64,000 nucleotides of DNA from Polaribacter sp. Q13 (GTDB lineage: Bacteria > Bacteroidota > Bacteroidia > Flavobacteriales > Flavobacteriaceae), in assembly GCF_016858305.2 (NCBI RefSeq), contig NZ_CP074436.1, positions 4,174,001 to 4,238,000 of the forward strand, written 5' to 3'. Below are positions 23,954-37,799 of this stretch, in pieces. The first letter of the stretch is position 1; each line of letters begins with the position of its first letter. Both the position numbers and the translations under genes were made by a program. The notes under the pieces were generated by a model. It was not told the origin of the DNA, made no database searches, and saw only the letters and a list, made by a program, of their open reading frames with translations.

Positions 23954-23996
23954 TAAAAGTATTTAAATAATGCAATTTATAAAATGATGCAGGTCA
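23954..23996 (-). promoter_or_regulatory. Island palindrome and -7 box driving mlaEFD
   Basis: On the minus strand TGACCTGCATCA (23996-23985) is followed after 23 nt by TACTTTTA (23961-23954), a near match to TAnnTTTG. Start is expected near 23949, 18 nt before the mlaE ATG. It has the same 12+23+8 geometry as the other eight sites. Confidence 0.65.
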
Positions 23997-24162
23997 GTTT
24001 AATAAAGTTTATAGCTATTTTTTTATGGATATTAGTTTCTATATGTATTTGGTGTTATGTAAAAAAATCCCATCAGGTCTAGATTATTTTTATGCTTTTA
24101 GTTTTATTGTAATTGCTTGTTTGTGAGTTATTTAGTTTATTGTGTGAAGTCGTTTTGTGAAC

Positions 24163-24205
24163 TGACCTAAGTCATTCATAGAATACTTTATTTATAATAA
24201 TTTAG
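24163..24205 (+). promoter_or_regulatory. Island palindrome and -7 box upstream of cardiolipin synthase
   Basis: TGACCTAAGTCA (24163-24174), a 23-nt spacer, then TAATTTAG (24198-24205), a one-mismatch -7 element. The predicted start near 24210 gives a leader of about 130 nt. Confidence 0.65.
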
Positions 24206-24341
24206 CATAAAAATGAATTATTATGAGTGGGCATACTTTTAATCGTATCAACATTATAAAAAATAATTACTTGTTTAAACGTTTGTTTTAAAAAAGTAAC
24301 CTTATTACATTTTATTCATAGAAACTAATATTAGTTAACTA

Positions 24342-25772
24342 ATGACGATAGCGCTCGTTCTATATTTTCTTTTAGCATTAGCTCTAATGGGTAGACTCTT
24401 GCTTTACGGAATACGACCAACCAAAACCTTAGCTTGGTTGTTGGCAATTTTTACGATTCCGGTTGGTGGAATGCTGTTATATTTTATACTTGGTCGTAAT
24501 CGAAGAAAAAATAAATTCTATACCTTAAAAAAAACAAAATCAATTTCTAAATACTTAAATAAGGTTCACGAATATTATAAAACCATAGATTCAGACTCAG
24601 ACATTCCTGCATCCATAAAAAAGCATATAAAACTAGTAAAACTCATTATTAAAGGAGCAAATTTTGTTCCTACTGTTGGCAATGAAATAATTCCACTTAA
24701 AAATGGAGCAGCTACTTTCGAAGCTATTTTTAAGGCTTTAGAAACTGCAAAAAAGTTCGTTCACATTCAGTATTATATTTTTGAAGAAGGCGATTTGGCT
24801 GAAAAATTTAAAACCATATTAATTAAAAAAGCCAAAGAAGGTGTTGAAGTGCGTTTGCTTTATGACGCTTTGGGAAGCAGAACATTAAGTCATACATATA
24901 TAAACAGTCTAAAAGCAGAAGGCATAGAAGTATTTGGTTTTTTACCTATGAAATTAGGTAGGTTTTTATCATCAATAAATTACCGAAATCATAGAAAAAT
25001 TGTGGTAGTAGATAGCGTGTATGGTTTTACTGGAGGCATTAATGTTGCAGATAAATACCTCTCTGGAGATCCTGATTTAGGTAATTGGTACGATATGCAT
25101 TTGCAGTTAAAAGGAACGATTGTAAATAGTTTACAATCTGTTTTTGCTATGGATTGGAGCTTTGCGAGTAATTCGGATAATTTATTAAACACACAATATT
25201 TCTTGAAACATTCAACCTCTGGAAAAACAGTTGCTCAGGTTGTTGCAGGTGGACCAGATTCAGAATTTTCTGCTATTCAGCAACTTTATTTTTCTATAAT
25301 TAATAGTGCAAAAAAGTATGTATACATTACCAATCCGTATATTATTCCGGGAGAGGCTTTAAAGGAAGCTATGCAAGTTGCTGCACTAAGTGGCATCGAT
25401 ATTAGATTACTTCTCTCTACAAAATCTGATAGTTTTTTGGTAAAATGGACGGTTCGTTCAATTTTTGAAGATTTACTAGAATCTGGAGTTAAAATTTTTT
25501 TATTTCCAGATGGATTTTTACATAGTAAAGTTATTATTTCAGATGATGAGCTTACGACTATTGGAACTGCAAATCTAGATATTAGAAGTTTTGAGCAAAA
25601 TTATGAAGTCAATGTTTTAATGTATGACAAGGAAATAACAACAAAATTAAAACTAGATTTTATAATAGATTGTAAAAAAAGTAATCAATTAAATTATAAT
25701 CAATTTCTTAAAAGACCAAAAATAGAACGTTTAAAAGAAGGTCTAGCCAAAGTGTTTAGTCCGGTTTTATAA
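24342..25772 (+). CDS. cls: Cardiolipin synthase (phospholipase D family)
   Basis: A 476-residue membrane enzyme that joins two phosphatidylglycerols, or PG and another lipid, into cardiolipin. Two N-terminal membrane helices (about 2-20 and 30-48) precede two PLD domains. Their HKD motifs are NHRKIVVVDSVYGFTGG (His at about 217) and LHSKVIISDDELTTIG (His at about 393). The GTANLDIRSFEQNYEVN block is typical of bacterial Cls. It lies directly upstream of a patatin phospholipase gene, so membrane lipid remodelling is a theme of the island. Confidence 0.92.
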   Translation: MTIALVLYFLLALALMGRLLLYGIRPTKTLAWLLAIFTIPVGGMLLYFILGRNRRKNKFYTLKKTKSISKYLNKVHEYYKTIDSDSDIPASIKKHIKLVKLIIKGANFVPTVGNEIIPLKNGAATFEAIFKALETAKKFVHIQYYIFEEGDLAEKFKTILIKKAKEGVEVRLLYDALGSRTLSHTYINSLKAEGIEVFGFLPMKLGRFLSSINYRNHRKIVVVDSVYGFTGGINVADKYLSGDPDLGNWYDMHLQLKGTIVNSLQSVFAMDWSFASNSDNLLNTQYFLKHSTSGKTVAQVVAGGPDSEFSAIQQLYFSIINSAKKYVYITNPYIIPGEALKEAMQVAALSGIDIRLLLSTKSDSFLVKWTVRSIFEDLLESGVKIFLFPDGFLHSKVIISDDELTTIGTANLDIRSFEQNYEVNVLMYDKEITTKLKLDFIIDCKKSNQLNYNQFLKRPKIERLKEGLAKVFSPVL

Positions 25773-25777
25773 GAAAC

Positions 25778-25820
25778 TGACCTAAATCAGTATCCGTTCA
25801 AAATCAACCTTGTATCTTTA
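25778..25820 (+). promoter_or_regulatory. Island palindrome and -7 box upstream of the patatin gene
   Basis: TGACCTAAATCA (25778-25789), a 23-nt spacer, then TATCTTTA (25813-25820). The predicted start near 25825 is 19 nt before the patatin ATG. The same transcript may run on into the histidine kinase and RR-CRP genes. Confidence 0.7.
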
Positions 25821-25843
25821 TATATTAAATACAAATCATAAAA

Positions 25844-26611
25844 ATGAATATAGGCTTAGTCCTTTCTGGTGGTGGCGCTCGTGGAGCTGCTCATATAGGA
25901 GTAATTAAAGCATTAGAAGAGCATGGTATTTTTCCTACACATATTGCAGGTACAAGTTCTGGAGCTATTGTTGGTGGCTTATATGCAGCAGGTGTTTCTT
26001 GGCCAGAGATATTAAATTTCTTTAAAACCATCACTATTTTTAGTACATATAGATATGCGCGAAATAAACCTGGTTTTTTAAATTCGGCTAATTTTTATGA
26101 TGACCTCAAAACCTTTTTTCCAATCGACAATTTTGATGCTTTAAAAAAAACATTATTTGTTACTGCTGCAAATATAATTGATGGGTCATCTAAGATATTT
26201 AGCCAAGGGCAAGTTATAAAACCTATTATTGCCTCTGCTTCTTTTCCGGGTGTTTTTACGCCTACGGAAATCAATGGTAATTATTATGTTGATGGCGGTA
26301 CGTTAAACAATTTCCCTGTAGAACCCTTAAAAACAATTTGTACTAAAATTATAGGTGTTTACGTTAATCCCTTAAAAGAAGTTAGTATCAACGATTTAAA
26401 ACATTCTTATTCTGTAATTGAGCGCGCTTATAAAATTAAAGTAGCAGCAGAATCTATGAACAAATTTCCGGAATGCGATTTAGTTATAACACCCCAAGAA
26501 TTAGTCGATTATGCAACTTTTGATATGAATAATATTGATACTATTTTTAATTTGGGCTATACAAACACTAAAAAAATATTAGAAAAAAATACGGATTTAT
26601 TTGTTTCATAA
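25844..26611 (+). CDS. Patatin-like phospholipase
   Basis: A 255-residue cytosolic lipase of the patatin/RssA type. The oxyanion loop SGGGARG (8-14), nucleophile elbow GTSSG with Ser38, and the catalytic Asp in DGGTLNNFPV (about 149-151) are all present. It hydrolyses acyl esters of phospholipids. It sits between cls and the histidine kinase, behind a site of the island palindrome. Confidence 0.92.
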   Translation: MNIGLVLSGGGARGAAHIGVIKALEEHGIFPTHIAGTSSGAIVGGLYAAGVSWPEILNFFKTITIFSTYRYARNKPGFLNSANFYDDLKTFFPIDNFDALKKTLFVTAANIIDGSSKIFSQGQVIKPIIASASFPGVFTPTEINGNYYVDGGTLNNFPVEPLKTICTKIIGVYVNPLKEVSINDLKHSYSVIERAYKIKVAAESMNKFPECDLVITPQELVDYATFDMNNIDTIFNLGYTNTKKILEKNTDLFVS

Positions 26612-26704
26612 TATCAAAAAATTAAATAAGGATATTAAAATATCACGTAGGTTATTTTCTTTAGAAGACAGTTAACATCTCTTAAAAACGGAACGAATTA
26701 CCAA

Positions 26705-29437
26705 ATGAAGCACATAAAACTTGATACGCTCATTCATAACTTACCAGGTATTGTGTATCGTTCAAAGAACGATGAAAATTTTACTGTAGAGTTTATGAGT
26801 GAAGGTTGCTTTGCATTAACAGGATACAAAAGCGAGGAGTTTGTAAATGGAAATGTATTATTTCCTCATTTAATTTTTAAAGAAGATAATAAAGCGATAG
26901 CAGAAGATGTACAAAAGGCAATTGCTAACAAAATAGCATTTTTTGTAGAATATCGTATAACTCATAAAAACGGAACAATTAAATATTGTAGAGAAAAAGG
27001 TCAAGGAATTTTCGATGTTAATGGAAATCTAATTGCTTTGGAAGGTTTTGTACAAGACATTACAAAACAAAAGGAAACCGAACTGCAACTGCAAGAAGAA
27101 AAAGCAAAAAATAGGGCATTGTTAGAAGCAATTCCAGATATGATGTTTATTCAAGATCTCGAAGGAAATTATACAGATTGTTTTGCTCCAAAATTAGAAA
27201 AGTTCTCTATGCCTGTTAAAACTTTAATAGGTGAGAATATGAATAATATATTACCACCGCATGTATATAAAGTAATAAAAAAAGCCCACAAACTTGCTAT
27301 TAAAAGTGGAGCGCTGCAGGTAGTGGAGTATCACGTAAAGAATAAAAATAAAGAAGATTTTTTTGAAGCGCGCGTAATTCATTTAAATCACCATGGTATT
27401 TTAACAATCGTTAGGGATATTACAGAGAAAAAGGCAGCCGAATTAAAGATTATAAAAAACGAAGCCAGAATTTCTGCTTTGTTAGAAACCTTACCAGATG
27501 TAATTATTGTTTATGATAAATATGGTAATCTTATAGAACTTCATGCCCCCGATAATTATCAGTTTTCAGTCCCTTATAATGAGCATATTGGAAAAAACAT
27601 AGATGCCATTCTTCCAAAAGATATTTGTGAAATAATTAGACATGGTTTTTCAGATTGCGAAAAAACAAAGAAACCTAAAACTGTAGAGTATTCCCTTATC
27701 ATTAATAATAAATTAACACATGTTGAATCTCGAATTATTAAAACATCCGAAGGAAATTTTTTAACCATTATACGAGATGTTACCCAACGTAAAAGTACAG
27801 AAATAGAACTCAAAGAAAACGAAGAAAGGCTTCGGCTTGCCTTAGAAGCGGGTGAATTTGGCTCTTGGGATTGGAATTTGCTTACCAATAGAATTATAAG
27901 AGATGAAAACGAACACTTATTATTTGGTGCAAATTTCAAAAATCAAGCACCTACATTTGAATCATTTATGGCTATGGTTCATGCAGATGATAAAGTGCGG
28001 ATAAAATTAGCAATCTCTAAAGTTTTAAAAATTGATAGTACGTATACAAATGAATATAGAATTGTATTACCAGATAAATCCATTCGTTGGTTAAAAGCAA
28101 AGGGAAAGGTTTATAAAAGTATCAACGGAAAACCTATTAGGATGCTAGGTATAACTCATGATATTACAGCACAAAAAAGAGCCGAACAAAAATTTAAAGA
28201 AAGTGAAGATAAGTTACGTAATTATACAGAAGAATTAGAACGAGAAATAACGGAACGGACCAAAGAACTCACTACAACGGTTCAAAAATTAATAGAATCT
28301 AATTTAAGTTTAGAAGACCAAATTTTAGTTACAAAAGCCGCAGAGAATAAAATAATACAAAGTAAATTTTTACTAGATAATATTTCTAAAAATTTCCCGA
28401 AAGGATTTGTAGTTGTTTGCGATTCTAATTTTAATATTCTTTTGGTTGAAGGAGAAGAAGTAGATGAACTTGGTTTTAGAGGTTTGGCAAATGAAAAAAC
28501 TTTAATAGATAATGTTATAGGGGTTCCGCAAAGCGTAAAAATCAAAGTAAAGGAAAATGTTCTAAAAACATTTAAAGGTAAGCATTGTTCTTTTGAGGTA
28601 GGATATCAAAATCGGGTCTTTTTAATTAATTCCTCGCCTTTAAGAGATCAAAACAATAACATTACACAAGTTTTATTGGTACATCATAATATTACCAAAC
28701 AGAAACAGATAGAATTAAATATTCAAAATAGTTTAAAACAAGAAAAAGAGTTAAGTGAATTAAAATCTCGGTTTATCTCAATGGCATCACATGAGTTTAG
28801 AACACCTTTAAGTGCTATTTTATCCTCCGCTATTTTAATAGAGAAACTAAATGCACCAGGAAAAGAAGATAAAAGGTTAAATCATGTATCAAAAATTAGG
28901 TCTAATATAAAAAACTTAGTTATTATACTTAATGATTTTTTATCATTAAGTAAATTAAACGAAGGCAAAGTTATAGCGCAACCTTCAACCTTTAATATTA
29001 TTGATTTTTCTAAATCTGTCATAGAAGAAATGGAAGGGGTTAAAAAAAGGGGGCAAATTATTTTATTTAAGCATCAACAAGAAAATTTAGAAGTGTTTTT
29101 AGATTTTAAACTAATGCGCCATATTATTTTCAATTTAATATCAAATGCTATTAAATATTCCGAAGAAAATAAAGAGATTACCTATAAAATAGCATCGAAC
29201 AATAAACAATTATTTATAACGGTTGCAGATAAAGGTATTGGCATACCTAAAGAAGATTTAGACAATATGTTTAGACGTTTTTATCGAGCCAATAACACAA
29301 CAAATATACAAGGCACTGGTTTAGGATTAAATATAACCAAACAATATACCGAACTTATGGGGGGAAAAATTGCCTTTAAAAGTGAATTAAATGTGGGTAC
29401 CACTTTTTACCTTGAGTTTCCTTTAAATATAGAATGA
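26705..29437 (+). CDS. Multi-PAS sensor histidine kinase
   Basis: A 910-residue kinase without a clear membrane segment. Four to five PAS domains occupy about 8-125, 140-260, 262-365, 372-495 and 565-685, and each of the first four ends with a typical PAC strand such as FVQDITKQKE, IVRDITEKK and ITHDITAQKR. A coiled coil at about 500-560 follows PAS4. The kinase core has the H-box MASHEFRTPLSAIL (His at about 697), N-box NLISNAIKYS, DKGIGIP and GTGLGLNITK. The next gene, 1 nt away, encodes the RR-CRP partner. Soluble PAS kinases often sense oxygen, redox state or ligands, but no cofactor ligand can be assigned here. Confidence 0.9.
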   Translation: MKHIKLDTLIHNLPGIVYRSKNDENFTVEFMSEGCFALTGYKSEEFVNGNVLFPHLIFKEDNKAIAEDVQKAIANKIAFFVEYRITHKNGTIKYCREKGQGIFDVNGNLIALEGFVQDITKQKETELQLQEEKAKNRALLEAIPDMMFIQDLEGNYTDCFAPKLEKFSMPVKTLIGENMNNILPPHVYKVIKKAHKLAIKSGALQVVEYHVKNKNKEDFFEARVIHLNHHGILTIVRDITEKKAAELKIIKNEARISALLETLPDVIIVYDKYGNLIELHAPDNYQFSVPYNEHIGKNIDAILPKDICEIIRHGFSDCEKTKKPKTVEYSLIINNKLTHVESRIIKTSEGNFLTIIRDVTQRKSTEIELKENEERLRLALEAGEFGSWDWNLLTNRIIRDENEHLLFGANFKNQAPTFESFMAMVHADDKVRIKLAISKVLKIDSTYTNEYRIVLPDKSIRWLKAKGKVYKSINGKPIRMLGITHDITAQKRAEQKFKESEDKLRNYTEELEREITERTKELTTTVQKLIESNLSLEDQILVTKAAENKIIQSKFLLDNISKNFPKGFVVVCDSNFNILLVEGEEVDELGFRGLANEKTLIDNVIGVPQSVKIKVKENVLKTFKGKHCSFEVGYQNRVFLINSSPLRDQNNNITQVLLVHHNITKQKQIELNIQNSLKQEKELSELKSRFISMASHEFRTPLSAILSSAILIEKLNAPGKEDKRLNHVSKIRSNIKNLVIILNDFLSLSKLNEGKVIAQPSTFNIIDFSKSVIEEMEGVKKRGQIILFKHQQENLEVFLDFKLMRHIIFNLISNAIKYSEENKEITYKIASNNKQLFITVADKGIGIPKEDLDNMFRRFYRANNTTNIQGTGLGLNITKQYTELMGGKIAFKSELNVGTTFYLEFPLNIE

Positions 29438-29438
29438 T

Positions 29439-30509
29439 ATGAAAAAAATACTATTAATTGAAGACAGTAAAGATGTTAGAGAAAATACAGCCGAAATTCT
29501 TGAATTAGAAAACTATGAGGTATCCACTGCCGAAAATGGTAAAATAGGTGTTGAAAAAGCACTTAAAATACATCCAGATTTAATTATTTGCGATATTATG
29601 ATGCCAGAATTAGATGGTTATGGTGTTTTTAAGCAATTACAAAGTAACCTAAAAACAGCTAGTATTCCATTTATATTTTTAACAGCAAAATCAGAAAAAT
29701 CAGATTTAAGAAAAGGAATGAATCTTGGTGCAGATGATTATTTAATTAAACCATTTGAAGAAGCAGAATTACTTGACGCCATAGCCTGTAGAATCAACAA
29801 AAATGATTTTTTAAAGAAAGAGTATTCTAAAAATATGCAAGGTATGAATCAATTTTTAAATGAAGCTTCAGATTATTTAAATCTAGAAGCTTTATCTAAA
29901 GATCGTAGCCTACAAAGTTATAAAATCAAAGAGCGAATTTATGATGAAGGCAATGCTGCGCATCAGTTGTTTTATATAGAAAGTGGTACTGTAAAAACAT
30001 ACAGAACTACAGAATCTGGTAAGGAGTTTGTAATAGGAGTGTATGGTGCTGGCAATTTTATTGGCCAATTATCTTTACTAGGAGATACCGGAACTTATAT
30101 AGAAACAGCCAGTGTTTTAGAAGATGCTGAGGTTTGCGGCATCCCAAAAGCAGATTTTGTAAATCTAATACATGGTAATAGAGACGTTTCTAATAAATTT
30201 ATTGGAATGATCTCTAATAATTTAATTCACCTACAAGAGCAGTTAGTGGATATGGCATTTGCTACTGTACGTCAAAAAACGGCCAAAGCATTATTAGAAC
30301 TAGATACTAAAGGTTTAATGAAAGATAAGCAACATGCCGGAATAAGTATTCCGAGAGATGATTTTGCAGGCTTAATAGGTGCAGCCACAGAAACAGCAAT
30401 TAGAATGTTAACCGAGTTTAAAAACGAAGGTTTAATTGCTATAGAAACCAATAGAAAACTCATTTTGATAAATAAAGAAGGTTTAAAGAAAATTGCAGAG
30501 TTTGGGTAA
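29439..30509 (+). CDS. Response regulator fused to a CRP/FNR-type DNA-binding module
   Basis: A 356-residue regulator. The receiver domain covers 1-122 with phospho-acceptor Asp52 (CDIMMPELDG) and the conserved Lys in DYLIKPFEEAE. A cyclic-nucleotide-binding-like beta roll at about 140-265 (IESGTVKTYRTTESGKEFV, GQLSLLGDTGTY) is followed by a winged helix with recognition helix GAATETAIRMLTEF. The Glu and Arg there match the positions that CRP and FNR use to read TGA/TCA half-sites. No FNR-type iron-sulfur cysteine cluster is visible. It is coupled to the PAS kinase gene (1-nt gap) and is my candidate for the protein that binds the nine TGAYNTRNRTCA sites. Confidence 0.92.
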   Translation: MKKILLIEDSKDVRENTAEILELENYEVSTAENGKIGVEKALKIHPDLIICDIMMPELDGYGVFKQLQSNLKTASIPFIFLTAKSEKSDLRKGMNLGADDYLIKPFEEAELLDAIACRINKNDFLKKEYSKNMQGMNQFLNEASDYLNLEALSKDRSLQSYKIKERIYDEGNAAHQLFYIESGTVKTYRTTESGKEFVIGVYGAGNFIGQLSLLGDTGTYIETASVLEDAEVCGIPKADFVNLIHGNRDVSNKFIGMISNNLIHLQEQLVDMAFATVRQKTAKALLELDTKGLMKDKQHAGISIPRDDFAGLIGAATETAIRMLTEFKNEGLIAIETNRKLILINKEGLKKIAEFG

Positions 30510-30560
30510 TAATCGTTAAAAGTAATAACAAGTTGTACTATCTGTAAATATGTATAAAAT

Positions 30561-30616
30561 AAAGCACCTATAATTAGTATTTTAGTGATTAAAATAATAC
30601 TAATTATAAATGCTTT
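30561..30616. terminator. Long hairpin between convergent RR-CRP and YtxH genes
   Basis: TATAATTAGTATT (30569-30581) pairs with AATACTAATTATA (30596-30608), and AAAGCA/TGCTTT extend the stem outside a two-base internal loop. A T run follows at about 30622. It probably ends both transcripts. Confidence 0.75.
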
Positions 30617-30718
30617 AAAACTTTTTTGGTTAATATATTCTTCATTACTTTTTACATAGTTATGAGTATTAACATCGATTCTTAAGATGTTTGATTTTAA
30701 TGCTTCAAAAAATCAAAA

Positions 30719-31052
30719 TTAGTTTTTTTGAAGGTGCGCATTTTTACGTTTAAGTTCTTCTAACTTATTTTCTAAAGCCGTAATAATATCATCTGCCTTA
30801 CCGCTCATATCAGAAATTGCATCATCTAATTTTTGATCAAATTCTTCTTTTTTATGATTTACGGTTTTTGTAAGTTCTTCTTTAGCATGAGAAACACGTT
30901 CTGCAATGTCGTGCTCAAGATTCTCTGCTTTTTGTTTAATCTTTTTTCTAGTTTTTGCACCTTTATCTGGTGCGTACAAAATTCCAATTCCTGCACCTAT
31001 TGGTTACCCCTGTTAATAAAGCCAATAAGGTGTTTTCACTATTCCTTGTCAT
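30719..31052 (-). pseudogene. YtxH-like stress protein gene with a frameshift after codon 15
   Basis: The minus strand from ATG 31052 reads MTRNSENTLLALLTG, the usual beginning of a YtxH protein. It then loses frame near 31000-31007. In the next frame it continues IGAGIGILYAPDKGAKTRKK and runs as an 86-codon open frame to 30719 with a long charged coiled coil (ERVSHAKEELTKTVNHKK). One extra base restores the normal family sequence. Either the gene is broken or the base is a sequencing error. Its promoter site at 31118-31160 fits the 31052 start, with a leader of about 60 nt. A shortened product from the internal Met at 30979 would lack the membrane anchor. Confidence 0.8.
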
Positions 31053-31117
31053 GATTCTATGTTTTTAATACCTGCAAATTGTATGCTCAGGTAGGTTTAT
31101 AATTTATTTCTATGCCT

Positions 31118-31160
31118 CAAAATTATGACTAATAATCTATGATTAGAATGACCTGCATCA
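31118..31160 (-). promoter_or_regulatory. Island palindrome and -7 box upstream of the YtxH gene
   Basis: On the minus strand TGATGCAGGTCA (31160-31149), a 23-nt spacer, then TAATTTTG (31125-31118), a perfect TAnnTTTG. It is divergent to the site at 31200. Confidence 0.75.
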
Positions 31161-31199
31161 GTATGTAAAAAAATAAAAAAGGATTCCAAATAATCAGAT

Positions 31200-31242
31200 T
31201 GATATAGGTCATTTCGTATAGGTATTTGTACTATTATTTTAG
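31200..31242 (+). promoter_or_regulatory. Island palindrome and -7 box upstream of the general-stress-like gene
   Basis: TGATATAGGTCA (31200-31211), a 23-nt spacer, then TATTTTAG (31235-31242). The predicted start near 31247 excludes the upstream ATG at 31226 and supports translation from ATG 31283. Confidence 0.7.
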
Positions 31243-31282
31243 CAATAGAATAGGCTATATAATTGCCAAGATTATAATATAC

Positions 31283-31759
31283 ATGAACTCTAAAGTAGAA
31301 GAATTAAAAGAAAAGCGCGTTTTATTAAAAGCTTTTCCTACAATTAAACAAATTGATAATGCTATAAAGCATATTTGCCAACTAAAGATTGATGGTATTC
31401 AAATTTCTGTATTAGGCAAACTAGAAGACGTTAATTTAGAGACCAATTTTGCAAATTATTGGACTGAATTAAAAACATATTGTAATGATGAATTACGACT
31501 AACTTCAAACTTTGGTGTAGTATCAACCCCTAAAATAGGGGCTGTTTTTATTGCAGGATTTTTGGCTCCTATGTTTTTACAAGAAATTAATGGAAAAAAA
31601 ATAGGAGCAATGACTACAGGTCTTTATGGCATTTTAAGAGGTATAGGAGTCGCTGAAGAAAGTGTTATAGAGTACAAGAAATCAATAAAAAAAGGTAATT
31701 ACTTACTTATAATTAGAGGAAATAAAAATGAATTACCTGTCGTGGAAGCTAATTTATAG
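31283..31759 (+). CDS. General stress protein 17M/DUF1269-like protein
   Basis: A 158-residue protein. The frame opens at 31226, but the promoter places transcription start near 31247, so ATG 31283 (MNSKVEELKEKRVLLKAF) is chosen. A glycine-rich hydrophobic segment (PKIGAVFIAGFLAPMF, GAMTTGLYGILRGIGV) precedes EESVIEYKKSIKKGNYLLII. This recalls general-stress proteins of the GSP17M or DUF1269 type, in which a glycine-zipper-like hairpin is flanked by this helix-strand. The family assignment is tentative. Confidence 0.65.
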   Translation: MNSKVEELKEKRVLLKAFPTIKQIDNAIKHICQLKIDGIQISVLGKLEDVNLETNFANYWTELKTYCNDELRLTSNFGVVSTPKIGAVFIAGFLAPMFLQEINGKKIGAMTTGLYGILRGIGVAEESVIEYKKSIKKGNYLLIIRGNKNELPVVEANL

Positions 31760-31945
31760 CAATCTGCTTTACCAGGCAATTTTACGGTGTAATCTTTAAT
31801 ATCTATATAAAATTTTTTTCGCATTTATATTTGCTGCACACTCAAAGGTTTGTTTAATTATATTATTAATATTTAAAGTGTTTGCATTAGGTTTTAAGTT
31901 GGTTTTGTTGATGAGACCATATACTCCAAGTAAATCATCAACAAC
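31757..31945 (-). pseudogene. Remnant of a BON-domain protein gene
   Basis: The minus strand reads VVDDLLGVYGLINKTNLKP, then NINNIIKQTFECAANINAKKI, matching the end of one BON domain and the start of the next in multi-BON (OsmY-like) stress proteins. At a run of seven A the frame slips; the next frame continues FYIDIKDYTVKLPGKAD, the following BON strand, and then ends against the stress gene. Both ends are missing. The remnant now abuts the promoter of the sigma-like gene. Confidence 0.65.
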
Positions 31946-31961
31946 TATATTCTTTTGAGAC

Positions 31962-32004
31962 TGATCTAGGTCAGTCACTTTAATATAAAGCATTTGTAAA
32001 TTTG
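31962..32004 (+). promoter_or_regulatory. Island palindrome and -7 box upstream of the sigma-like gene
   Basis: TGATCTAGGTCA (31962-31973), a 23-nt spacer, then TAAATTTG (31997-32004), a perfect -7 element. The predicted start near 32009 is about 15 nt before the ATG. This is the best single example of the arrangement. Confidence 0.8.
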
Positions 32005-32023
32005 GGCAATAAAATTTTTCGAA

Positions 32024-32791
32024 ATGGACAATTTAAAATATTATGAAAGTAAAAAGGAATTTGATGTATTTGTGGCAAGTACTTTTTCCGATTTAAAGAA
32101 GTACAAACAAGAAAACAAACAAGCAGATTTTAATAGCTTATTATTAACAGATTTATATGAAGTAAAGCACTACATTATTAAAAGATTAAGTACCGCCTTA
32201 ACCAAAGGAAATTTACCTCAAGGAAAATATAAAGCGGATGATTTTATTAATCGATTATTTATAGAAGTTTATGACCATATTGATGAGGTTGAAAGTGAGA
32301 AACAATTATATCCTTGGTTATTTAAAAAAGCCAATGACTTATTAGATGATAAAATTGACGAAGAAGAGTTTGATGATTTCTTTCTTAAAAATATTGATAC
32401 TTACACGCAATCTGAGTGGGATGAAATGGAAGAAAAATTTAGTACAGATGGTGGTGGAGATTTATTGATGATTGAAGAATTAGATGATATGTCTTACAAC
32501 CATAATGACTATACATTAAACCATGTATTTATAGAAGATGACGAAAAAGATTGGATTGAAAAGATTGACAGAGATTTAAGTGCTAAAGACATTGAAAATC
32601 AAATTGCATTAGTACTACATCATTTACCTTTAGAAATACGAACCGTTTTTCAATTGTCTACTTTTAAACACTTAGAGTTGTTTGAAATAGCTCAAATAAG
32701 AAACATAACTACAGAAGATGTGAAATTACATTTAACTACTGCAAAAAAAGCACTTAAACTTAGTTTTATCAATAGATATCCTTTAAAATAA
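32024..32791 (+). CDS. Sigma-70/ECF-like factor
   Basis: A 255-residue protein. A region-2-like segment (YKADDFINRLFIEVYDHI and PWLFKKANDLLDDKI) is followed by an acidic linker and a region-4-like helix-turn-helix (LHHLPLEIRTVFQLSTFKH, LFEIAQIRNITTEDVKLHL). The overall pattern is that of an extracytoplasmic-function sigma factor with an unusually long acidic insert (DEEEFDDFFLKNIDTY and onward). It may direct part of the stress response. No anti-sigma gene is adjacent. Confidence 0.75.
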   Translation: MDNLKYYESKKEFDVFVASTFSDLKKYKQENKQADFNSLLLTDLYEVKHYIIKRLSTALTKGNLPQGKYKADDFINRLFIEVYDHIDEVESEKQLYPWLFKKANDLLDDKIDEEEFDDFFLKNIDTYTQSEWDEMEEKFSTDGGGDLLMIEELDDMSYNHNDYTLNHVFIEDDEKDWIEKIDRDLSAKDIENQIALVLHHLPLEIRTVFQLSTFKHLELFEIAQIRNITTEDVKLHLTTAKKALKLSFINRYPLK

Positions 32792-32807
32792 AAAATAGTT
32801 TTGTACG

Positions 32808-32876
32808 ATGAACGACAAGGATTATTATAAAATATTAGGCTGTACTAAGAATACACACTTTTTTAAACGATTTTAA
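32808..32876 (+). pseudogene. Truncated DnaJ/CbpA J-domain remnant
   Basis: MNDKDYYKILGCTKNT begins exactly like a J-domain protein (usually DYYKILGV.K.A), but it loses similarity after 16 residues and stops at codon 23. Nothing of the HPD motif or the rest of the chaperone follows in any frame. It lies 16 nt after the sigma-like gene and so may once have been in its operon. Confidence 0.6.
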
Positions 32877-32894
32877 ATTCTTAAAAAAAATTGT

Positions 32895-33000
32895 GTTTAA
32901 TTATATAAAAAGTTTAAAAAAGTAAAAATCTATTCATGTAGATTTATTTGCAGAATGATATGGTTCTTGTAAAAAGGAATTGGTTAGAGTTATAACACAG
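32895..33000 (+). pseudogene. Degenerate thioredoxin gene remnant
   Basis: In one frame from 32926 the DNA reads KSIHVDLFAE, stop, YGSCKKELV. This aligns with thioredoxin VDFFAEWCGPCK: Trp has become TGA, the first Cys TAT and Pro TCT. All three are single transitions, which suggests mutational decay rather than a read error. The match covers only about 20 codons, so it is suggestive, not certain. Confidence 0.5.
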
Positions 33001-33107
33001 CAGATATAAAATTAAAGTTACATAATAATTTATTATTATTATATTCTAGGAAATACAATGAGGCTGATGCTATTCATAATTTTAAGGATTTTTATAACAG
33101 TTTACAG

Positions 33108-33389
33108 ATGACGCATTTGGCAAGTGATTTACTGGATAAAGGGCTGTCTCCAAAACAAATTTTAGAAGCAGTGGTTCTGGCTATAAAAATTGCAAATGCA
33201 TCAGGTATTGAAACAAATGCTCATTTTATGCCCATTTTTAGTGGAATAAACCAAAGCATTGTACAAGATTGTAAACTCTCTCACCTAGGCTACGGTTTGG
33301 TACTTATGAATGCAAATGCAAACCTGCCTATTGTTGGTGAATTTCAAGTAGCTATTTTAAATACTTATCTAAATAACAGGACGATGTGA
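33108..33389 (+). CDS. Unknown small protein, possibly the 3' end of a broken gene
   Basis: A 93-codon frame (MTHLASDLLDKGLSPKQILE...NNRTM) with protein-like composition and a helical N-terminal half; I recognise no family. The same frame is open back to about 32987 without an earlier ATG and reads YNEADAIHNFKDFYNSLQ just before the Met. This suggests a longer ancestral gene. It lies between pseudogene remnants, so it may itself be non-functional. Confidence 0.4.
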   Translation: MTHLASDLLDKGLSPKQILEAVVLAIKIANASGIETNAHFMPIFSGINQSIVQDCKLSHLGYGLVLMNANANLPIVGEFQVAILNTYLNNRTM

Positions 33390-33400
33390 AAAGACGAAGT

Positions 33401-33585
33401 TTAATAGTTTATGATATCTAATTCATTTATTACTATCTGCAGACCAGATGCTAAATATGATGCGTTTTCTGCAGCTTTTTTCTAGGCAATAGAATTGTAT
33501 TATGCCATTTAGTTTCACTAAACTTTTTGTTGTATCAATTATAATTGCGTTAGCTTTAATATCTGTTACACTGACTCCTTGAACT
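33401..33585 (-). pseudogene. Second BON-domain gene remnant
   Basis: The minus strand reads GVSVTDIKANAIIIDTTK and SLVKLNGIIQFY. It slips frame at an A run, then continues KKAAENASYLASGLQIVINE and LDIINY before a stop. This is the strand-helix-strand pattern of one BON domain (VTLSG...A..AA...GV..V.NEL.V). The 5' part is missing. Confidence 0.55.
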
Positions 33586-33660
33586 TACAAATTATTTTAT
33601 TTTTTAAAGATTTAATTGTTTTCTAAATTCATGTTATAAGTGCAACATGAATATTAAAAA

Positions 33661-34557
33661 CTATTTTAAAAAATTTGGATTTTTAAAAGCTGGGTTAGGA
33701 TATTTATAAAACCCTTCACCAGTAGAAACACCCAATTTATTTTTATCGATATAGTGCTCTTTTAAGTAGGCTACGGTTTTTATTTTTAAAGGATCTTTAG
33801 TTTTGTTGGCTGCTATTTTATCAATATTATAGGCTGTTGTAATGCCAACAATGTCTAGAATAGCAAAAGGACCTAATGGAGCACCAGTTGCTTTCATCCA
33901 AGTTTTATCTATTGTTTCTGGCTTAGCAACTTCATTTACTAATAAAGCAGTTGCTGCATTTATTAATGGTACTAATAGTGAATTTAAAATATAACCAGGT
34001 TGCTCTTTATATAAAGGCAAAGGCAACATACCAATTGCTTTGGCAAAGTCAATAATATCATTAAAAATTTGGGGGTTGGTAGTTGCATGCCCCATAATTT
34101 CTGCTGTATTATGAATCCATACCGTATTGGCAAAATGTAAAGCTAAAAACTTAGAAGGTCTTCCGGTAGATTCTGCAAATTGACTAGGTAATAGTGTTGA
34201 AGAATTTGTTACAAAAACTGTTTTTTCTGGGGCTACTTTTGCTAGAGTTTTATAGAAATCTATTTTTATTGCAGGATTTTCTGGAACCGCTTCAATGAGT
34301 AAATCTGCATCTTTTACAGCTTCTGCTAAATTTGAAGTGTATTTTAAGTTTCGATGTGTTTTATCAATTTGTCGCTGCGTTGCTTTTAAGTCTTTTTTAT
34401 AGGCTTCACCCAAATTGTTGAATTTGTTTTTTGCTTTCTCCAAATTTTCATCTGTGATGTCATAAACAGTTACACAAAATCCGTGAAATGCAGTTTGAAA
34501 TGCAATTTGATAACCCAAAACACCGCTTCCTGCTACAGTTATATTTTTATAGTTCAT
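33661..34557 (-). CDS. 3-hydroxyacyl-CoA (3-hydroxybutyryl-CoA) dehydrogenase
   Basis: A 298-residue NAD-dependent enzyme that oxidises 3-hydroxyacyl-CoA or reduces acetoacetyl-CoA. The Rossmann motif GSGVLGYQIAFQTAF starts at residue 10. The family blocks EAVPENPAIKIDFYKTLA, FVTNSSTLLPSQFAESTGRP, LALHFANTVW and EQPGYILNSLLVPLINAA follow, and the C-terminal domain carries GAPLGPFAILDIVGI. The catalytic His lies in ALHFAN. It has no palindrome immediately upstream. Confidence 0.9.
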   Translation of the reverse strand: MNYKNITVAGSGVLGYQIAFQTAFHGFCVTVYDITDENLEKAKNKFNNLGEAYKKDLKATQRQIDKTHRNLKYTSNLAEAVKDADLLIEAVPENPAIKIDFYKTLAKVAPEKTVFVTNSSTLLPSQFAESTGRPSKFLALHFANTVWIHNTAEIMGHATTNPQIFNDIIDFAKAIGMLPLPLYKEQPGYILNSLLVPLINAATALLVNEVAKPETIDKTWMKATGAPLGPFAILDIVGITTAYNIDKIAANKTKDPLKIKTVAYLKEHYIDKNKLGVSTGEGFYKYPNPAFKNPNFLK

Positions 34558-34684
34558 TTTTATATTTTTTTTGTTGATTTTTCACACAAACTTCTTCCAG
34601 ATGAACAGAAGTATTCCATTCTAAATTTAAAACGGATTTTTTAGCAAGGTATGTATCACTAAAGTTGTCTTTAATTTTAACCAT
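34547..34684 (-). CDS. Possible 45-residue protein overlapping the dehydrogenase start
   Basis: A short frame from ATG 34684 (MVKIKDNFSDTYLAKKSVLN...QQKKYKNEL) overlaps the first bases of the dehydrogenase gene in another frame. The composition is plausible, but there is no family match, promoter or conservation evidence; it could be chance or a remnant. Confidence 0.25.
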   Translation of the reverse strand: MVKIKDNFSDTYLAKKSVLNLEWNTSVHLEEVCVKNQQKKYKNEL

Positions 34685-34700
34685 TATCAGTAACTATAAA

Positions 34701-34747
34701 AAACAGAGATTAAGAGATTCCTAAAATTACTTAATCTCTGTTTTTTT
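34701..34747. terminator. Terminator after gpmA
   Basis: AAACAGAGATTAAG (34701-34714) pairs perfectly with CTTAATCTCTGTTT (34730-34743), and T runs follow on both strands. Confidence 0.85.
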
Positions 34748-34788
34748 CAAATTTCCAATTAAAAAAAAACATCCTTTTTTCTAATCTT

Positions 34789-35499
34789 TTAAAGAACCAA
34801 TTCGTTTTTTTGTTTTAATGCGTAGTTATCTTTTAAAGTCATTGTACTATCAAAATCATAGATATTTAGAACTCCTGTTTGTACTTCTACTTTTGAAATT
34901 TCTGAAGCAGGAATATTTAAAATTTGAGTCATTAATGCTCTAATAGAGTTTCCGTGAGCAGAAACAAGTACGGTATTCCCCTTTACTAATTCTGGTACAA
35001 TAGCTTCAAAATAATATTCAACGGCTCTTTGTTTGGTATCTTTTAAAGATTCCGTTAGTGGTAAATTAGAAGTATTGACTTTTTTGTATTTCGGGTCTAA
35101 TTTTGGATATCTATCGTCATCTAATGATAATGCAGGTGCGGAAGCACTATAGCCTCGTCTTACTTTCCAGAATAGGTCTTCGCCAACTTCTTTTCTTACT
35201 TCGTCCTTATTTCTTCCTTGCCAAGCACCATAATTTCGTTCATTTAGTTTCCAACTTTTAATGAAATCTATTTGCGTTAAATTGGCTGTTTCCAGAATAA
35301 TTGAAGCAGTTTTAATAGCTCTTTTTAAATAAGATGAAAAGCAAATGTCTATAGCGATGTTTTTGTCTCTAATAAGTTCGCCTGCTATTTTTGCTTCTTC
35401 AATACCTTGATCTGCAAGGTCTATATCTGTCCACCCTGTAAATATGTTTTCTATATTCCAGATGCTTTTTCCGTGTCTTACTAGAATTAATTTTCCCAT
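34789..35499 (-). CDS. gpmA: 2,3-bisphosphoglycerate-dependent phosphoglycerate mutase
   Basis: A 236-residue glycolytic enzyme that interconverts 3- and 2-phosphoglycerate. The catalytic His9 lies in LVRHGKSIWN, followed by FTGWTDIDLADQG, LNERNYGAWQGRNKDEVR and the second His in SAHGNSIRALM. The usual RRSYD element reads RRGYSASAPAL. The island palindrome 180 nt upstream (35680-35691) suggests stress-linked expression. Confidence 0.9.
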   Translation of the reverse strand: MGKLILVRHGKSIWNIENIFTGWTDIDLADQGIEEAKIAGELIRDKNIAIDICFSSYLKRAIKTASIILETANLTQIDFIKSWKLNERNYGAWQGRNKDEVRKEVGEDLFWKVRRGYSASAPALSLDDDRYPKLDPKYKKVNTSNLPLTESLKDTKQRAVEYYFEAIVPELVKGNTVLVSAHGNSIRALMTQILNIPASEISKVEVQTGVLNIYDFDSTMTLKDNYALKQKNELVL

Positions 35500-35844
35500 T
35501 ATTACTTCATTTATAGATTGTTTAAATCTTTATTATCAATTCACAATACCTTTGCTTAGAGTATTCTGTAATTGATATAATTTTTCTTCTTATCTTTTTT
35601 ACTTTTTTATTATTCTTTGATTAGAAAATGTGTAATGATTTACATCCTCAAAATTAGTTTGTAAAATTTGTGTACCTAATGACCTAAGTCAGTATGATGA
35701 AAAAATGTTGCATTTATTTTAATAAATAAGAGATTAGAAAATAGTTAAAAATAGAAAGAAGAATCATAGGTTCTTTTTTGATCAACAACACTTTTATTAG
35801 TATCTATTTTAAAAAAGGACAACCCAATAATTCCTTTTAGGTTT
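35500..35844. other. Leader and regulatory region of gpmA
   Basis: About 345 bp containing the palindrome and -7 box at 35649-35691 and an mRNA leader of roughly 145 nt. No gene is seen. Confidence 0.5.
35649..35691 (-). promoter_or_regulatory. Island palindrome and -7 box upstream of gpmA
   Basis: On the minus strand TGACTTAGGTCA (35691-35680), a 23-nt spacer, then TAATTTTG (35656-35649), a perfect TAnnTTTG. Confidence 0.75.
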
Positions 35845-36231
35845 TTACATATATTCTTCAAGAAATCTAAAAAAATCTTTTTTAAGTTGGGTGTAAATAT
35901 TTCTTTGATTTTCCATTTTATTTCTAAACTCAACATGTTTTTTAGCTAATTGAGTATCTAAGGCATCTTTATTTGTCTTGCTTTGTGCAGCAATACGTGT
36001 TTCATGTTCTTCAATAATTTCTTGTAAATCTTCTATGACAGCTTCGTGAAGAACAAATTCATTTTGAAAATGTTCTAGTTTTGCAAGTACATCTTTATCT
36101 GTCCAACGAGATACGAGTTCACTTAATCTTCTGTTAAAAGATTTTAATTCATCTTCCCAAAAAGCAAGTTCTCGTTTCCAATTTATATGCTCAAAATGCA
36201 TGTTTTCGTTATATAAAATTTTAGTTTTCAT
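35845..36231 (-). CDS. Unknown coiled-coil protein
   Basis: A 128-residue cytosolic protein made almost entirely of charged helices (WEDELKSFNRRLSELVSRW, VLHEAVIEDLQEIIEEHE, QLKKDFFRFLEEYM), so an antiparallel helical hairpin or bundle is likely. No family is recognised. ATG 36231 lies 24 nt after the predicted start of the promoter at 36260-36302. Confidence 0.7.
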   Translation of the reverse strand: MKTKILYNENMHFEHINWKRELAFWEDELKSFNRRLSELVSRWTDKDVLAKLEHFQNEFVLHEAVIEDLQEIIEEHETRIAAQSKTNKDALDTQLAKKHVEFRNKMENQRNIYTQLKKDFFRFLEEYM

Positions 36232-36578
36232 AATGTTGTTGTTTTAAAATTCTAGATTTCAAAGGTTGCATTTTAGTCAGAAATTCAAAATGATACAGGT
36301 CATTTTAAAGGTTTATTTAATTATTTTCTAGTGTTACAGTCTAAAATAATGAAAAACTAGTAGATTTAGAGCTTATTAGTTAAGCCCGTTTAGTGTATTT
36401 GCTAGACCAAGAAGGCTTTCACCATCTAGGTTTTATCCGAATAGCGTAGCATAATTATTCGTTATGTATATATTCCATATAATGCTATTTATTACGATTT
36501 ATTGTTTAGCAATTGTTTCTATTTAAAGAATAGAATTTGGGCACGAATTATACTATAGAGCTAGCTGTTCATTATAAT
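36232..36578. other. Intergenic region with the promoter of the coiled-coil gene
   Basis: Apart from the palindrome at 36291-36302, about 275 bp to the next gene hold nothing that I can identify. Confidence 0.5.
36260..36302 (-). promoter_or_regulatory. Island palindrome and -7 box upstream of the coiled-coil gene
   Basis: On the minus strand TGACCTGTATCA (36302-36291), a 23-nt spacer, then AACCTTTG (36267-36260), a one-mismatch -7 element. Confidence 0.6.
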
Positions 36579-36944
36579 TTAAATCTTAATAATATCCGTA
36601 GGTGTTTCAACCAAAATAGTAATATCGCCACGTATTGCTATAGGCTGTTTCATAATTTCAGGATTGTGTTGTATCATTTTAATCCAGTCGTCTGTAGTTA
36701 AATTATGATGCTTAAAACGTGAGGTGTAAGCAGGGTGTTCTTGATTAACCAAGTCCGCTACTTCTAAATGCAATCTATCTGCAAGTTCTACAATTTGAGT
36801 ACCAGTAAGTTTGGTTTTTAAAATATCTATCTCTAGAATCTCTAATCCTTCTGCTTTAGCATAAACTAATGTTTGTTTTGCTCTAACAGATTTTGAACTA
36901 TAGAATATGGTAATTTGTCTGTTTGATGTAGCTATTTCTCCCAT
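36579..36944 (-). CDS. ArsC/Spx-like thioredoxin-fold protein lacking cysteine
   Basis: A 121-residue protein of the ArsC-like glutaredoxin-fold family. ITIFYSSKSVRAKQTLVYAK matches the first strand and helix, and MKQPIAIRGDITILVETPTDI matches the cis-Pro strand and C terminus. The residue that aligns with the catalytic Cys is Ser19, and the whole protein contains no cysteine, so it cannot be a classical arsenate reductase. A binding or regulatory role is more likely. The start lies 4 nt after the stop of the upstream small gene, in one operon. Confidence 0.75.
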   Translation of the reverse strand: MGEIATSNRQITIFYSSKSVRAKQTLVYAKAEGLEILEIDILKTKLTGTQIVELADRLHLEVADLVNQEHPAYTSRFKHHNLTTDDWIKMIQHNPEIMKQPIAIRGDITILVETPTDIIKI

Positions 36945-36948
36945 GATA

Positions 36949-37170
36949 TTAAATATTATTTTTTATTTTCTCTTCTTCTAAATAATGTTTTAATATTTGT
37001 TTCAAACTTTCTAAATAATCTTGCATCACTGTTTTATCCATGTAAGGATGTTTGCTTACAGGTAAAGTGATAGGGTTTTCATCTAAAGAACGATATAATT
37101 CTGGGTAATTCGTTTCAATATTAGTAGTTAGTTCTGTAATTTCCTGTAATATGTTCTGTGAATTTTTCAT
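36949..37170 (-). CDS. Unknown 73-residue protein
   Basis: MKNSQNILQEITELTTNIET... is a mostly helical small protein with a central NPITLPVSKHPYMDKTVM segment. No family that I can name. It is co-transcribed with the ArsC-like gene. The nearest island promoter is about 310 nt upstream. Confidence 0.65.
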   Translation of the reverse strand: MKNSQNILQEITELTTNIETNYPELYRSLDENPITLPVSKHPYMDKTVMQDYLESLKQILKHYLEEEKIKNNI

Positions 37171-37799
37171 AATAAATATGTATTTTATGTGAACGTTTTA
37201 CTCATCTTTCAAAACACCAATAGAATGTAATTTAGCAACTTTTCGATTAAGTAAATAGCCAAAACTAACACAGATAATGTAGATAAGTCAAAGCCAATAA
37301 GGATAGAATATATAACTGTTTTTATGCCAATTTATCGCGTCCGTTCGGTAATCTATCTTTTAAATCACTAAAAAAATATGCTACACATATTGGATTAAAT
37401 CTTAAAATAATAAAAAAAGATACAGAGGATCTAACCATCAAGTTGTGCTAATAAAATATCAATATAATGCTACTTAGATTTTATACAAATTTAGGGTTAC
37501 TCTCTTTTTTGTAAAATGATGCAGGTCATTGTGTAAATTTTTAAATGGAAATAATTTTAAAATTCATAATAAAACGGCATCATTAAAAAAGGTGTTTTTA
37601 TCAACCTTTATAAAGAAGTATAACTATAAAGAATCTAATTTAAAAGGGTGAAGTTAGGAGACTTATCTAGTGGTATCTTAATATAGAAAGATGCTTAAAA
37701 AAAAGAAGCATTTTATTTCTAACTCATTATAAATTCATTATTCAATTAAAATAAAAAAACTTTAGTATTTTTATGGCTTTATTAAACTTCTATATGCCA
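37171..37799. other. Divergent region with possible decayed coding DNA
   Basis: Between the small-protein operon and the hybrid regulator. The leftward promoter at 37486-37528 would give a leader of about 310 nt. That stretch contains protein-like minus-strand fragments in different frames (for example AYFFSDLKDRLPNGRDKLA and VSFGYLLNRKVAKLHSIG) broken by stops. It may be a lost gene, which I cannot identify. Confidence 0.35.
37486..37528 (-). promoter_or_regulatory. Ninth island palindrome and -7 box
   Basis: On the minus strand TGACCTGCATCA (37528-37517), a 23-nt spacer, then TAAATTTG (37493-37486), a perfect TAnnTTTG pointing to the small-protein operon. A weaker TAATTTTA at 37552 on the plus strand has the same spacing, so rightward activity cannot be excluded. 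Confidence 0.7.

Follow-up and report, generated by a model that had tools for sequence, protein, structure and literature searches.

What joins nine short palindromes that lie within 13.6 kb of the Polaribacter sp. Q13 genome, each at one and the same distance from a predicted promoter box? The palindromes share the pattern TGAYNTRNRTCA and occur in a stretch of 64,000 nucleotides (nt) of contig NZ_CP074436.1 (positions 4,174,001 to 4,238,000), called the window below; the region that holds them makes up 0.3% of the genome (G000, 4.42 Mb). Among them lies the gene of a response regulator that carries a receiver (REC) domain and a CRP-type output in one protein (RR-CRP, here RR-CRP1; 29439..30509, plus strand). 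A preliminary description of the window had taken the sites for a local regulon of CRP/FNR-type promoters and this protein for its natural regulator. Judging from sequence comparison, the nine sites are probably class II, activator-dependent promoters of the REC-CRP response regulator RR-CRP1. The observation itself stands confirmed; its proposed mechanism is probable, and RR-CRP1 is the likely regulator.

Nine sites at a fixed distance from the -7 box

All nine copies are found at the places first reported, and a pattern scan finds none in the rest of the 64 kb. Counted strand by strand, there are 14 matches at these nine places, while 100 shuffles give a mean of 0.92 and a maximum of 6. The sites had been called a shared palindrome; this stands insofar as a CRP/FNR-type site is present at all nine places, but the pattern itself is not its own reverse complement, and four of the nine sites therefore match on one strand only. 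Read towards the gene, each site is followed after exactly 23 nt by the -7 box TAnnTTTG, as claimed: the box is exact in four cases (sites 31149, 31962, 35680 and 37517) and has one mismatch in five.

Palindrome, 23-nt gap and box together form an oriented 43-nt pattern, referred to here as the composite. A genome-wide scan for it, proposed earlier as a check, has been run: there are nine exact composites in 4.42 Mb, three of them in the window, and 35 with at most one mismatch, nine of them in the window. The remaining 26 (in 4.41 Mb) predict 0.08 composites for 13.6 kb, against nine observed (Poisson, 3e-16). The bare 12-mer is mildly enriched across the genome (57 + 46 matches vs 30 + 31 for a reversed control) and is far less special than the composite; it is the combination of core, spacing and clustering that carries the information.

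The geometry in relatives

Relatives were represented by 80 loci from a scan with the RR-CRP protein, with at most 10 kb on each side, of which 28 (L031-L058 in our numbering of loci) hold the closer RR-CRP orthologues; the sampling is centred on RR-CRP homologues, and related genera are not independent (four loci, for example, are from Arenibacter). These loci contain 163 TGAYNTRNRTCA sites where 0 to 0.6 are expected per locus. Most of them fall in L031-L058, and many distant loci have none. Taking each site in both directions, exact boxes number 48 at 23 nt vs 8 summed over the other 33 distances; with one mismatch allowed, the count at 23 nt rises to 141, and no other distance exceeds 11. 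The preference extends to all TGAN6TCA sites (one Arenibacter kept): exact boxes within 15-31 nt sit at 23 nt in 63/67 cases among 29 RR-CRP1 sources, 44/51 among 21 loci of a paralogue, RR-CRP2, and 17/25 among 52 distant loci. The TGACC/GGTCA core recurs with the same geometry around RR-CRP orthologues in other genera. Culturable relatives with RR-CRP1 include Lacinutrix himadriensis, Polaribacter sp. Hel1_85 and Winogradskyella thalassocola.

The sites have the form expected for class II control by CRP/FNR proteins: they are palindromes of two-fold symmetry whose TGA and TCA half sites are separated by 6 bp. In a logo of 184 ortholog-side composites, preselected to carry a box with no more than one mismatch, the box is strong and a T-rich stretch comes right after the palindrome; there is no conserved -33 element, and the promoters therefore probably need an activator. 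In sigmaA promoters of Flavobacterium psychrophilum, the TAnnTTTG box is placed at -12 to -5 (PMC9723704). Transferred to the composite, that position would put the site centre at -41.5, the class II distance, with the start of transcription (+1) predicted from the published box to lie 47 nt beyond the first base of the palindrome. The fixed geometry is consistent with the distance first proposed.

The same 23-nt spacing also occurs in many genomes with other signatures, such as TGACATATGTCATATTTTAA and TGATATAGGTCAAAGG. These patterns suggest that the spacing may be general for CRP/FNR activation in the family.

RR-CRP1 as the candidate regulator

RR-CRP1, the proposed regulator, has a receiver domain (PF00072, 1.5e-28) followed by features of the CRP/FNR family, a cyclic nucleotide (cNMP)-binding fold and a Crp-type helix-turn-helix (PF00027, 1.4e-19; PF13545, 3.3e-11). 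The open reading frame (ORF) of a multi-PAS histidine kinase (26705..29437, plus strand), its presumed partner, stops 1 nt ahead, as in a two-component system. The recognition helix ATETAIR recurs among orthologues with small changes. Sensing by an FNR-type Fe-S cluster was considered and is not supported: by eye, the CRP part has one cysteine only, too few for the 4Fe-4S type. The Arg/Ser pair known for cAMP binding was not seen either, by eye and without alignment or structure.

Composites also go with the regulator across genomes. Among 199 genomes, those with a close orthologue (at least 57% identity to RR-CRP1; n=17) have a mean of 5.0 exact composites vs 1.35 in those without (n=182; Mann-Whitney p=2e-9, or p=8e-9 minus the window's genome). 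RR-CRP1 as natural regulator of the local regulon is thus well placed: the sites cluster at its gene, they do likewise in orthologous loci, genomes with orthologues are rich in composites, and the core differs from that of the paralogue.

In the mechanism that these observations point to, the multi-PAS kinase just upstream would phosphorylate the receiver domain of RR-CRP1. A dimer would bind a palindrome of the type TGAC-CTAG-GTCA at the predicted -41.5, in place of a -33 element, and would contact RNA polymerase sitting at TAnnTTTG. RR-CRP1 would in this manner control its own operon and local envelope, stress and metabolic genes. TGACCTAGGTCA would be the predicted RR-CRP1 binding sequence, and TGATATATATCA the predicted preference of RR-CRP2.

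A paralogue with a different core

RR-CRP2 is the second REC-CRP protein of the window's genome (C1:2845915-2846961) and is 42% identical to RR-CRP1. Composites on its side (G000 and 20 other genomes) keep the spacing and have a different core, most often TGATATATATCA. All-A/T cores make up 59/134 composites on the RR-CRP2 side vs 14/173 on the RR-CRP1 side; for CC or GG cores the counts are 9/134 vs 100/173. This contrast ties the core to the regulator. In a FastTree phylogeny of 100 sequences (midpoint root), RR-CRP2 proteins form one clade (21/21, support 1.0), and the RR-CRP1 set (28) forms another (support 0.974) together with a distant member, L060.

Targets on the RR-CRP2 side include universal stress proteins (Usp; 46 proteins, 19/21 loci), a ribosome hibernation factor (5 loci), HSP20 (4), pyridoxamine-oxidase-like proteins (3), CcoI-like ATPases (6) and, by resemblance, CcoNO-type oxidase (2); a part of these sites may in fact serve other CRP/FNR proteins. 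The surroundings of RR-CRP2 in G000 (C1:2838000-2857500, L155) look like a second local regulon, with the REC-CRP paralogue, a FixL-like kinase, two Usp proteins and an ATP-cone/Mrr protein and, by eye, a metallo-beta-lactamase-fold protein and DnaJ.

Sensor kinases

What do the kinases sense? Partner kinases were taken as ORFs of at least 300 amino acids (aa) that end next to the response regulator gene; L041 and L056 have none, nor does one of the 21 RR-CRP2 loci. The N-terminal PAS domain of the RR-CRP2 kinase in G000 matches FixL (1d06) at 7.9e-14 with the haem histidine aligned. A distant relative (L090) gives a FixL match of 3.3e-29, and the L031 kinase, whose RR-CRP is 74% identical to that of the window, one of 1e-13, again with the histidine aligned. 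With a FixL-like PAS profile, histidine stands at the ligand place in 20/20 RR-CRP2 kinases, in 32/46 distant kinases (the other 14 have no match) and in 8/29 RR-CRP1 kinases. The other RR-CRP1 kinases have K, E, Y, L, R, V, I, A, a gap or no match there; the L048 kinase has a histidine in another PAS that matches less well. For the window's kinase, the sequence does not support haem sensing: a FixL-type haem PAS was not found, only weak FixL matches (0.0075-0.0093) on 253-371.

Near distant RR-CRP genes, composites face genes of CcoNO-, CcoG- and HemA-domain proteins, of a CcoI-like ATPase and of a radical-SAM protein taken for HemN. Together with the His-bearing FixL-like kinases, these targets lead us to read the family as a FixL-J-K-type circuit in which J and K would be fused. 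Elsewhere in Bacteroidota, REC-CRP proteins appear often to be coupled to FixL-like kinases, near composites at genes for cbb3 oxidase, haem synthesis, Usp and HSP20. Our preferred reading of RR-CRP1 is that of a paralogue with drifted input, in which the geometry would have been kept while core, sensor and much of the regulon changed.

Conserved and non-conserved targets

A footprint test in RR-CRP1 loci, which counts a homologue if a composite precedes the gene, separates the target genes. The composite is kept before 14/14 ytxH, 16/18 DUF1269-like, 8/14 patatin and 7/12 coiled-coil homologues; at each of the spacings 20-22 and 24-26, 0-1 homologues of these four genes are found. It also precedes 5/14 sigma-like, 2/3 73-aa ORF and 1/1 mlaE homologues. 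The gpmA gene lies outside the test, its homologue being absent from the relatives' loci. The first target list thus holds in part: in relatives the site is conserved at the ytxH, patatin, coiled-coil and DUF1269-like genes but not at cls and the ArsC-like gene.

Gene assignment over the 80 loci and the window gives as recurrent targets ytxH (16 loci), DUF1269-like (16), HSP20 (15), the kinase (15, four of them Arenibacter), Usp (12), coiled coil (10) and patatin (9), and less often BON (6), phosphoenolpyruvate (PEP)-synthase-like (6), MscS-like (6), dodecin (4) and Dps (1). RR-CRP itself has a composite in 0/30 cases; its gene follows the kinase. The label of a 'stress and lipid' regulon was too specific, as the recurrent targets include ytxH, DUF1269-like, HSP20, kinase, patatin, coiled-coil, Usp and BON genes. 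By both counts, the lipid genes belong to the window's set and not to the conserved heart.

Alternative explanations

Several points weigh against RR-CRP1 as class II activator at the nine sites and against the FixL-type background given to it. First, loci were picked around RR-CRP, and the link between site and regulator is therefore partly by construction. Second, the composite is absent before the cls (0/4) and arsC (0/2) homologues in the relatives' loci, and the direct footprint on kinase homologues gives 2/10 only. Third, the logo has A in 59% of composites at the predicted +1 and in 57% two bases on, so that the A adds little support; of the nine window sites, six have A and three have T or C at the predicted +1. 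Fourth, RR-CRP1 is patchy: 3/36 genomes of the genus searched carry an orthologue. Of the two same-genus relatives with one, G029 has a kinase that matches FixL at 1.6e-6 with V at the histidine place. The PAS profile was itself seeded with His-bearing sequences, and haem binding is read from sequence alignment. Finally, further CRP/FNR proteins are encoded in G000, and some sites could be theirs.

This last point opens the first alternative, that the sites are real class II CRP/FNR promoters bound by a different, stand-alone CRP/FNR protein, with RR-CRP a mere neighbour. In its favour, the composite is not exclusive to RR-CRP: other CRP/FNR-like promoters of the family share the 23-nt spacing with other cores. 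G000 holds such composites too, before genes that by eye resemble those of a CRP protein (L157), of a cbb3 oxidase (L158) and of a copper nitrite reductase (L141), and it encodes additional CRP/FNR homologues. Against it, the core TGACC/GGTCA is common around RR-CRP1 and rare around RR-CRP2. Genomes with RR-CRP1 orthologues are, moreover, the richer ones in composites, and in 15 loci gene assignment puts a composite before the kinase ORF. We regard a stand-alone regulator as unlikely on these grounds.

Could RR-CRP, instead of activating in class II fashion, act mainly as a repressor or in a dual role? At a promoter with a -33 element of its own, a dimer at -41.5 could keep RNA polymerase out; the 184 composites have no such conserved element and would probably need an activator. 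Repressor sites are usually variable in position, unlike these, which are concentrated at a single spacing, and a mainly repressing RR-CRP is accordingly very unlikely. That a dispersed repeat or an artefact of composition gave rise to the 43-nt units, as their clustering in 13.6 kb might hint, is hardly credible, since spacer and flanks differ among copies that conserve the palindrome, the T-tract behind it and the box, homologous genes in other genera face the same layout, and shuffles and reversed controls do not reproduce the composite. Control of the nine sites by RR-CRP1 as a class II activator remains our preferred explanation.

The nine sites and their genes

The leftmost site, TGACCTGCATCA at 23985..23996 on the minus strand, has its box TACTTTTA (23954-23961, one mismatch) towards the mlaEFD-like lipid transport genes (21392..23930, minus strand; the family search covered the MlaE subunit only). 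On the plus strand, TGACCTAAGTCA (24163..24174) with box TAATTTAG (24198-24205, one mismatch) points towards a cardiolipin-synthase-like protein with PLD domains (24342..25772, plus strand), for which cls is the label of the preliminary description. The next, TGACCTAAATCA (25778..25789, plus strand; box TATCTTTA at 25813-25820, one mismatch), faces patatin, kinase and RR-CRP; the patatin-like phospholipase gene (25844..26611, plus strand) heads this gene run, and autoregulation of the RR-CRP operon from this site is possible.

Two sites diverge between the next genes. The palindrome at 31149..31160 (TGATGCAGGTCA on the minus strand) has an exact box, TAATTTTG (31118-31125), and is directed on the minus strand towards the ytxH-like gene (30719..31052, minus strand), which is split across two frames relative to a homologue; relatives have unbroken copies, and the split could be real or a sequencing error. 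The other, TGATATAGGTCA (31200..31211, plus strand; box TATTTTAG at 31235-31242, one mismatch), precedes the gene of a small protein (31286..31759, plus strand), a conserved target. Its DUF1269 match is weak (0.0062), and three homologues tested have none. Further on, TGATCTAGGTCA (31962..31973, plus strand) has the exact box TAAATTTG (31997-32004) towards a sigma-70-like protein (32024..32791, plus strand) that family models recognise weakly; by eye, an acidic stretch separates its recognised parts.

The last three sites are on the minus strand. TGACTTAGGTCA (35680..35691; exact box TAATTTTG at 35649-35656) faces a gpmA-type phosphoglycerate mutase identified by family search (34789..35499, minus strand), and TGACCTGTATCA (36291..36302; box AACCTTTG at 36260-36267, one mismatch) a protein that is coiled coil by eye and by its first label (35845..36231, minus strand). 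A second copy of TGACCTGCATCA (37517..37528) has the exact box TAAATTTG (37486-37493) towards the 73-aa ORF and the ArsC/Spx-like gene (36579..37170, minus strand). Here a second, one-mismatch box lies 23 nt away on the other side, facing the gene of a hybrid two-component sensor at 37773; boxed on both sides, this site may serve two divergent promoters.

A structured RNA in relatives

Not every composite precedes a gene: 11/234 assigned composites have no downstream ORF, and additional cases of this kind came to light. Downstream of several lies a unit of about 390 nt that ends in an intrinsic terminator and occurs in 1 to 4 tandem copies. Copies occupy L161:7204-9034, L045:15060-16342, L044:14501-15334, L046:11720-12106 and L039:12611-12990, and further loci with the unit are L165, L166, L168 and L124. 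Kordia and Winogradskyella are among the genera that carry it. Ten copies were found via the composite; of six more 5'-complete ones found by sequence, five start at the expected composite distance, which gives 15/16 at that distance (5'-truncated matches excluded).

The unit appears to be a structured RNA, with support from covariation. Nine copies support a structure of 67 pairs, with 94.5% of cells paired vs at most 48.0% with slid partners, though this comparison is biased in favour of the structure, which was built from the very alignment it is tested on. Double changes in pairs number 71 vs 25 (standard deviation, sd, 4) in shuffles, with 0/500 as high; the measure of further pair types lies below nearly all shuffles. 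One copy folds 6.5 sd below 100 shuffles. There is no Rfam match at gathering score in L161, L045, L046, L044, L041 or the window. A coding role was rejected: among ORFs of at least 15 aa that open with any of three start codons, by eye, no peptide is shared across genera.

An 81-nt model of the RNA has clear matches (E<1e-5) in seven loci among 34 closer-ortholog sources and window stretches. Across the 199 genomes it gives 13 matches, some weak (to 7e-4), in 11 genomes, 4 of which contributed sequences to the model; all 11 are among the 99 genomes with an RR-CRP at E 1e-70 or better. A composite lies 211-227 nt upstream in 6/7 of the new genomes and for 10/13 of all matches. Its core matches whichever regulator the genome has: the 7 RR-CRP1 genomes show GATCA/GGTCA types and the 4 with RR-CRP2 alone show ATATCA, the composite of one of these four lying 403 nt upstream. 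In G112, a genome with both regulators, the third RNA copy lies 358 nt downstream of a composite with an ATATCA core. Near RR-CRP2, L198 and L199 give clear model matches, and L185, L187 and L202 give weak ones; by eye, L185, L187, L198 and L203 have similar units that lack a gene, with GTTCTTT as 5' element and a comparable terminator.

In the window's own genome, no copy was found by blastn over the 199 genomes or by the 81-nt model with strict filters. The model has no window match up to E=1 and two weak ones elsewhere in G000 stretches (0.42, 0.73), and a permissive profile gives chance-level matches (window best 0.89, G000 stretches best 0.13). With no credible copy in window or genome, the RNA is, as far as seen, a feature of relatives.

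Significance and comparison with known systems

The composite amounts to a base-exact promoter code with a candidate regulator, in a group for which, to our knowledge, binding sites have been assigned to few transcription factors. With two paralogues of the same geometry and different cores in one genome, specificity becomes accessible by site swaps. The association with FixL-like kinases, and with an RNA encoded nearby, hints at how flavobacteria may cope when oxygen or energy is limiting, and the RNA family offers a fresh subject for study. The system combines probable class II CRP/FNR control via a fused response regulator with two cores in one genome and, in relatives, the RNA. No REC-CRP regulator with such sites in Bacteroidota was found in searches of the open-access literature, outside which most subscription journals lie.

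At class II CRP/FNR promoters of Escherichia coli, the activator is centred at -41.5 and replaces the upstream promoter element, and the promoter box is TATAAT. The sites described here share the TGAN6TCA palindrome, and their predicted centre is at -41.5; they differ in their -7 box TAnnTTTG, in the preference for CTAG or ATAT as inner bases and in having a response regulator as regulator. DosR of the mycobacterial dormancy regulon is LuxR/NarL-type. Its regulon resembles the RR-CRP2-side targets in Flavobacteriaceae (Usp, HSP20, ribosome hibernation factor and pyridoxamine-oxidase-like proteins), but the DosR site is unrelated to the REC-CRP palindrome.

Within the phylum, F. psychrophilum responds to oxygen limitation with higher expression of its cbb3 oxidase and haem synthesis genes (PMC9723704); the available part of that report gives sigma motifs, not composite-type sites, and its main text lacks the words crp and fnr. 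MalR-like CRP/FNR homologues have been predicted in Flavobacteriales and Saprospiraceae in a paper whose accessible portion has 'response regulator' in a reference only (PMC8510549).

The closest parallel is the low-oxygen cascade of rhizobia, FixL-FixJ/FixK and its variant hFixL-FxkR-FixK (PMC7888657, PMC9104804). Like it, the RR-CRP family has a FixL-like haem-PAS kinase, a receiver-domain partner and a CRP/FNR-type output, and in distant relatives the composites face cbb3 oxidase, CcoI-like, CcoG and haem synthesis genes. Unlike it, the REC-CRP circuit uses the Bacteroidota promoter box TAnnTTTG, and in the window the kinase lacks a haem PAS and most targets are non-respiratory; with receiver and CRP module in one ORF, there is no separate FixJ-to-FixK step. 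Bacteroidota may possess a circuit of the FixL-J-K type in fused form, where a kinase with a haem PAS, or one derived from it, would act on a REC-CRP protein whose site is locked 23 nt before TAnnTTTG. In Flavobacteriaceae, two paralogues with separable cores might answer to oxygen limitation or dormancy on one side and envelope stress on the other; both might drive a structured, often tandem RNA as a post-transcriptional arm and jointly fill a survival role of the RpoS or DosR type. We hold this wider picture only tentatively.

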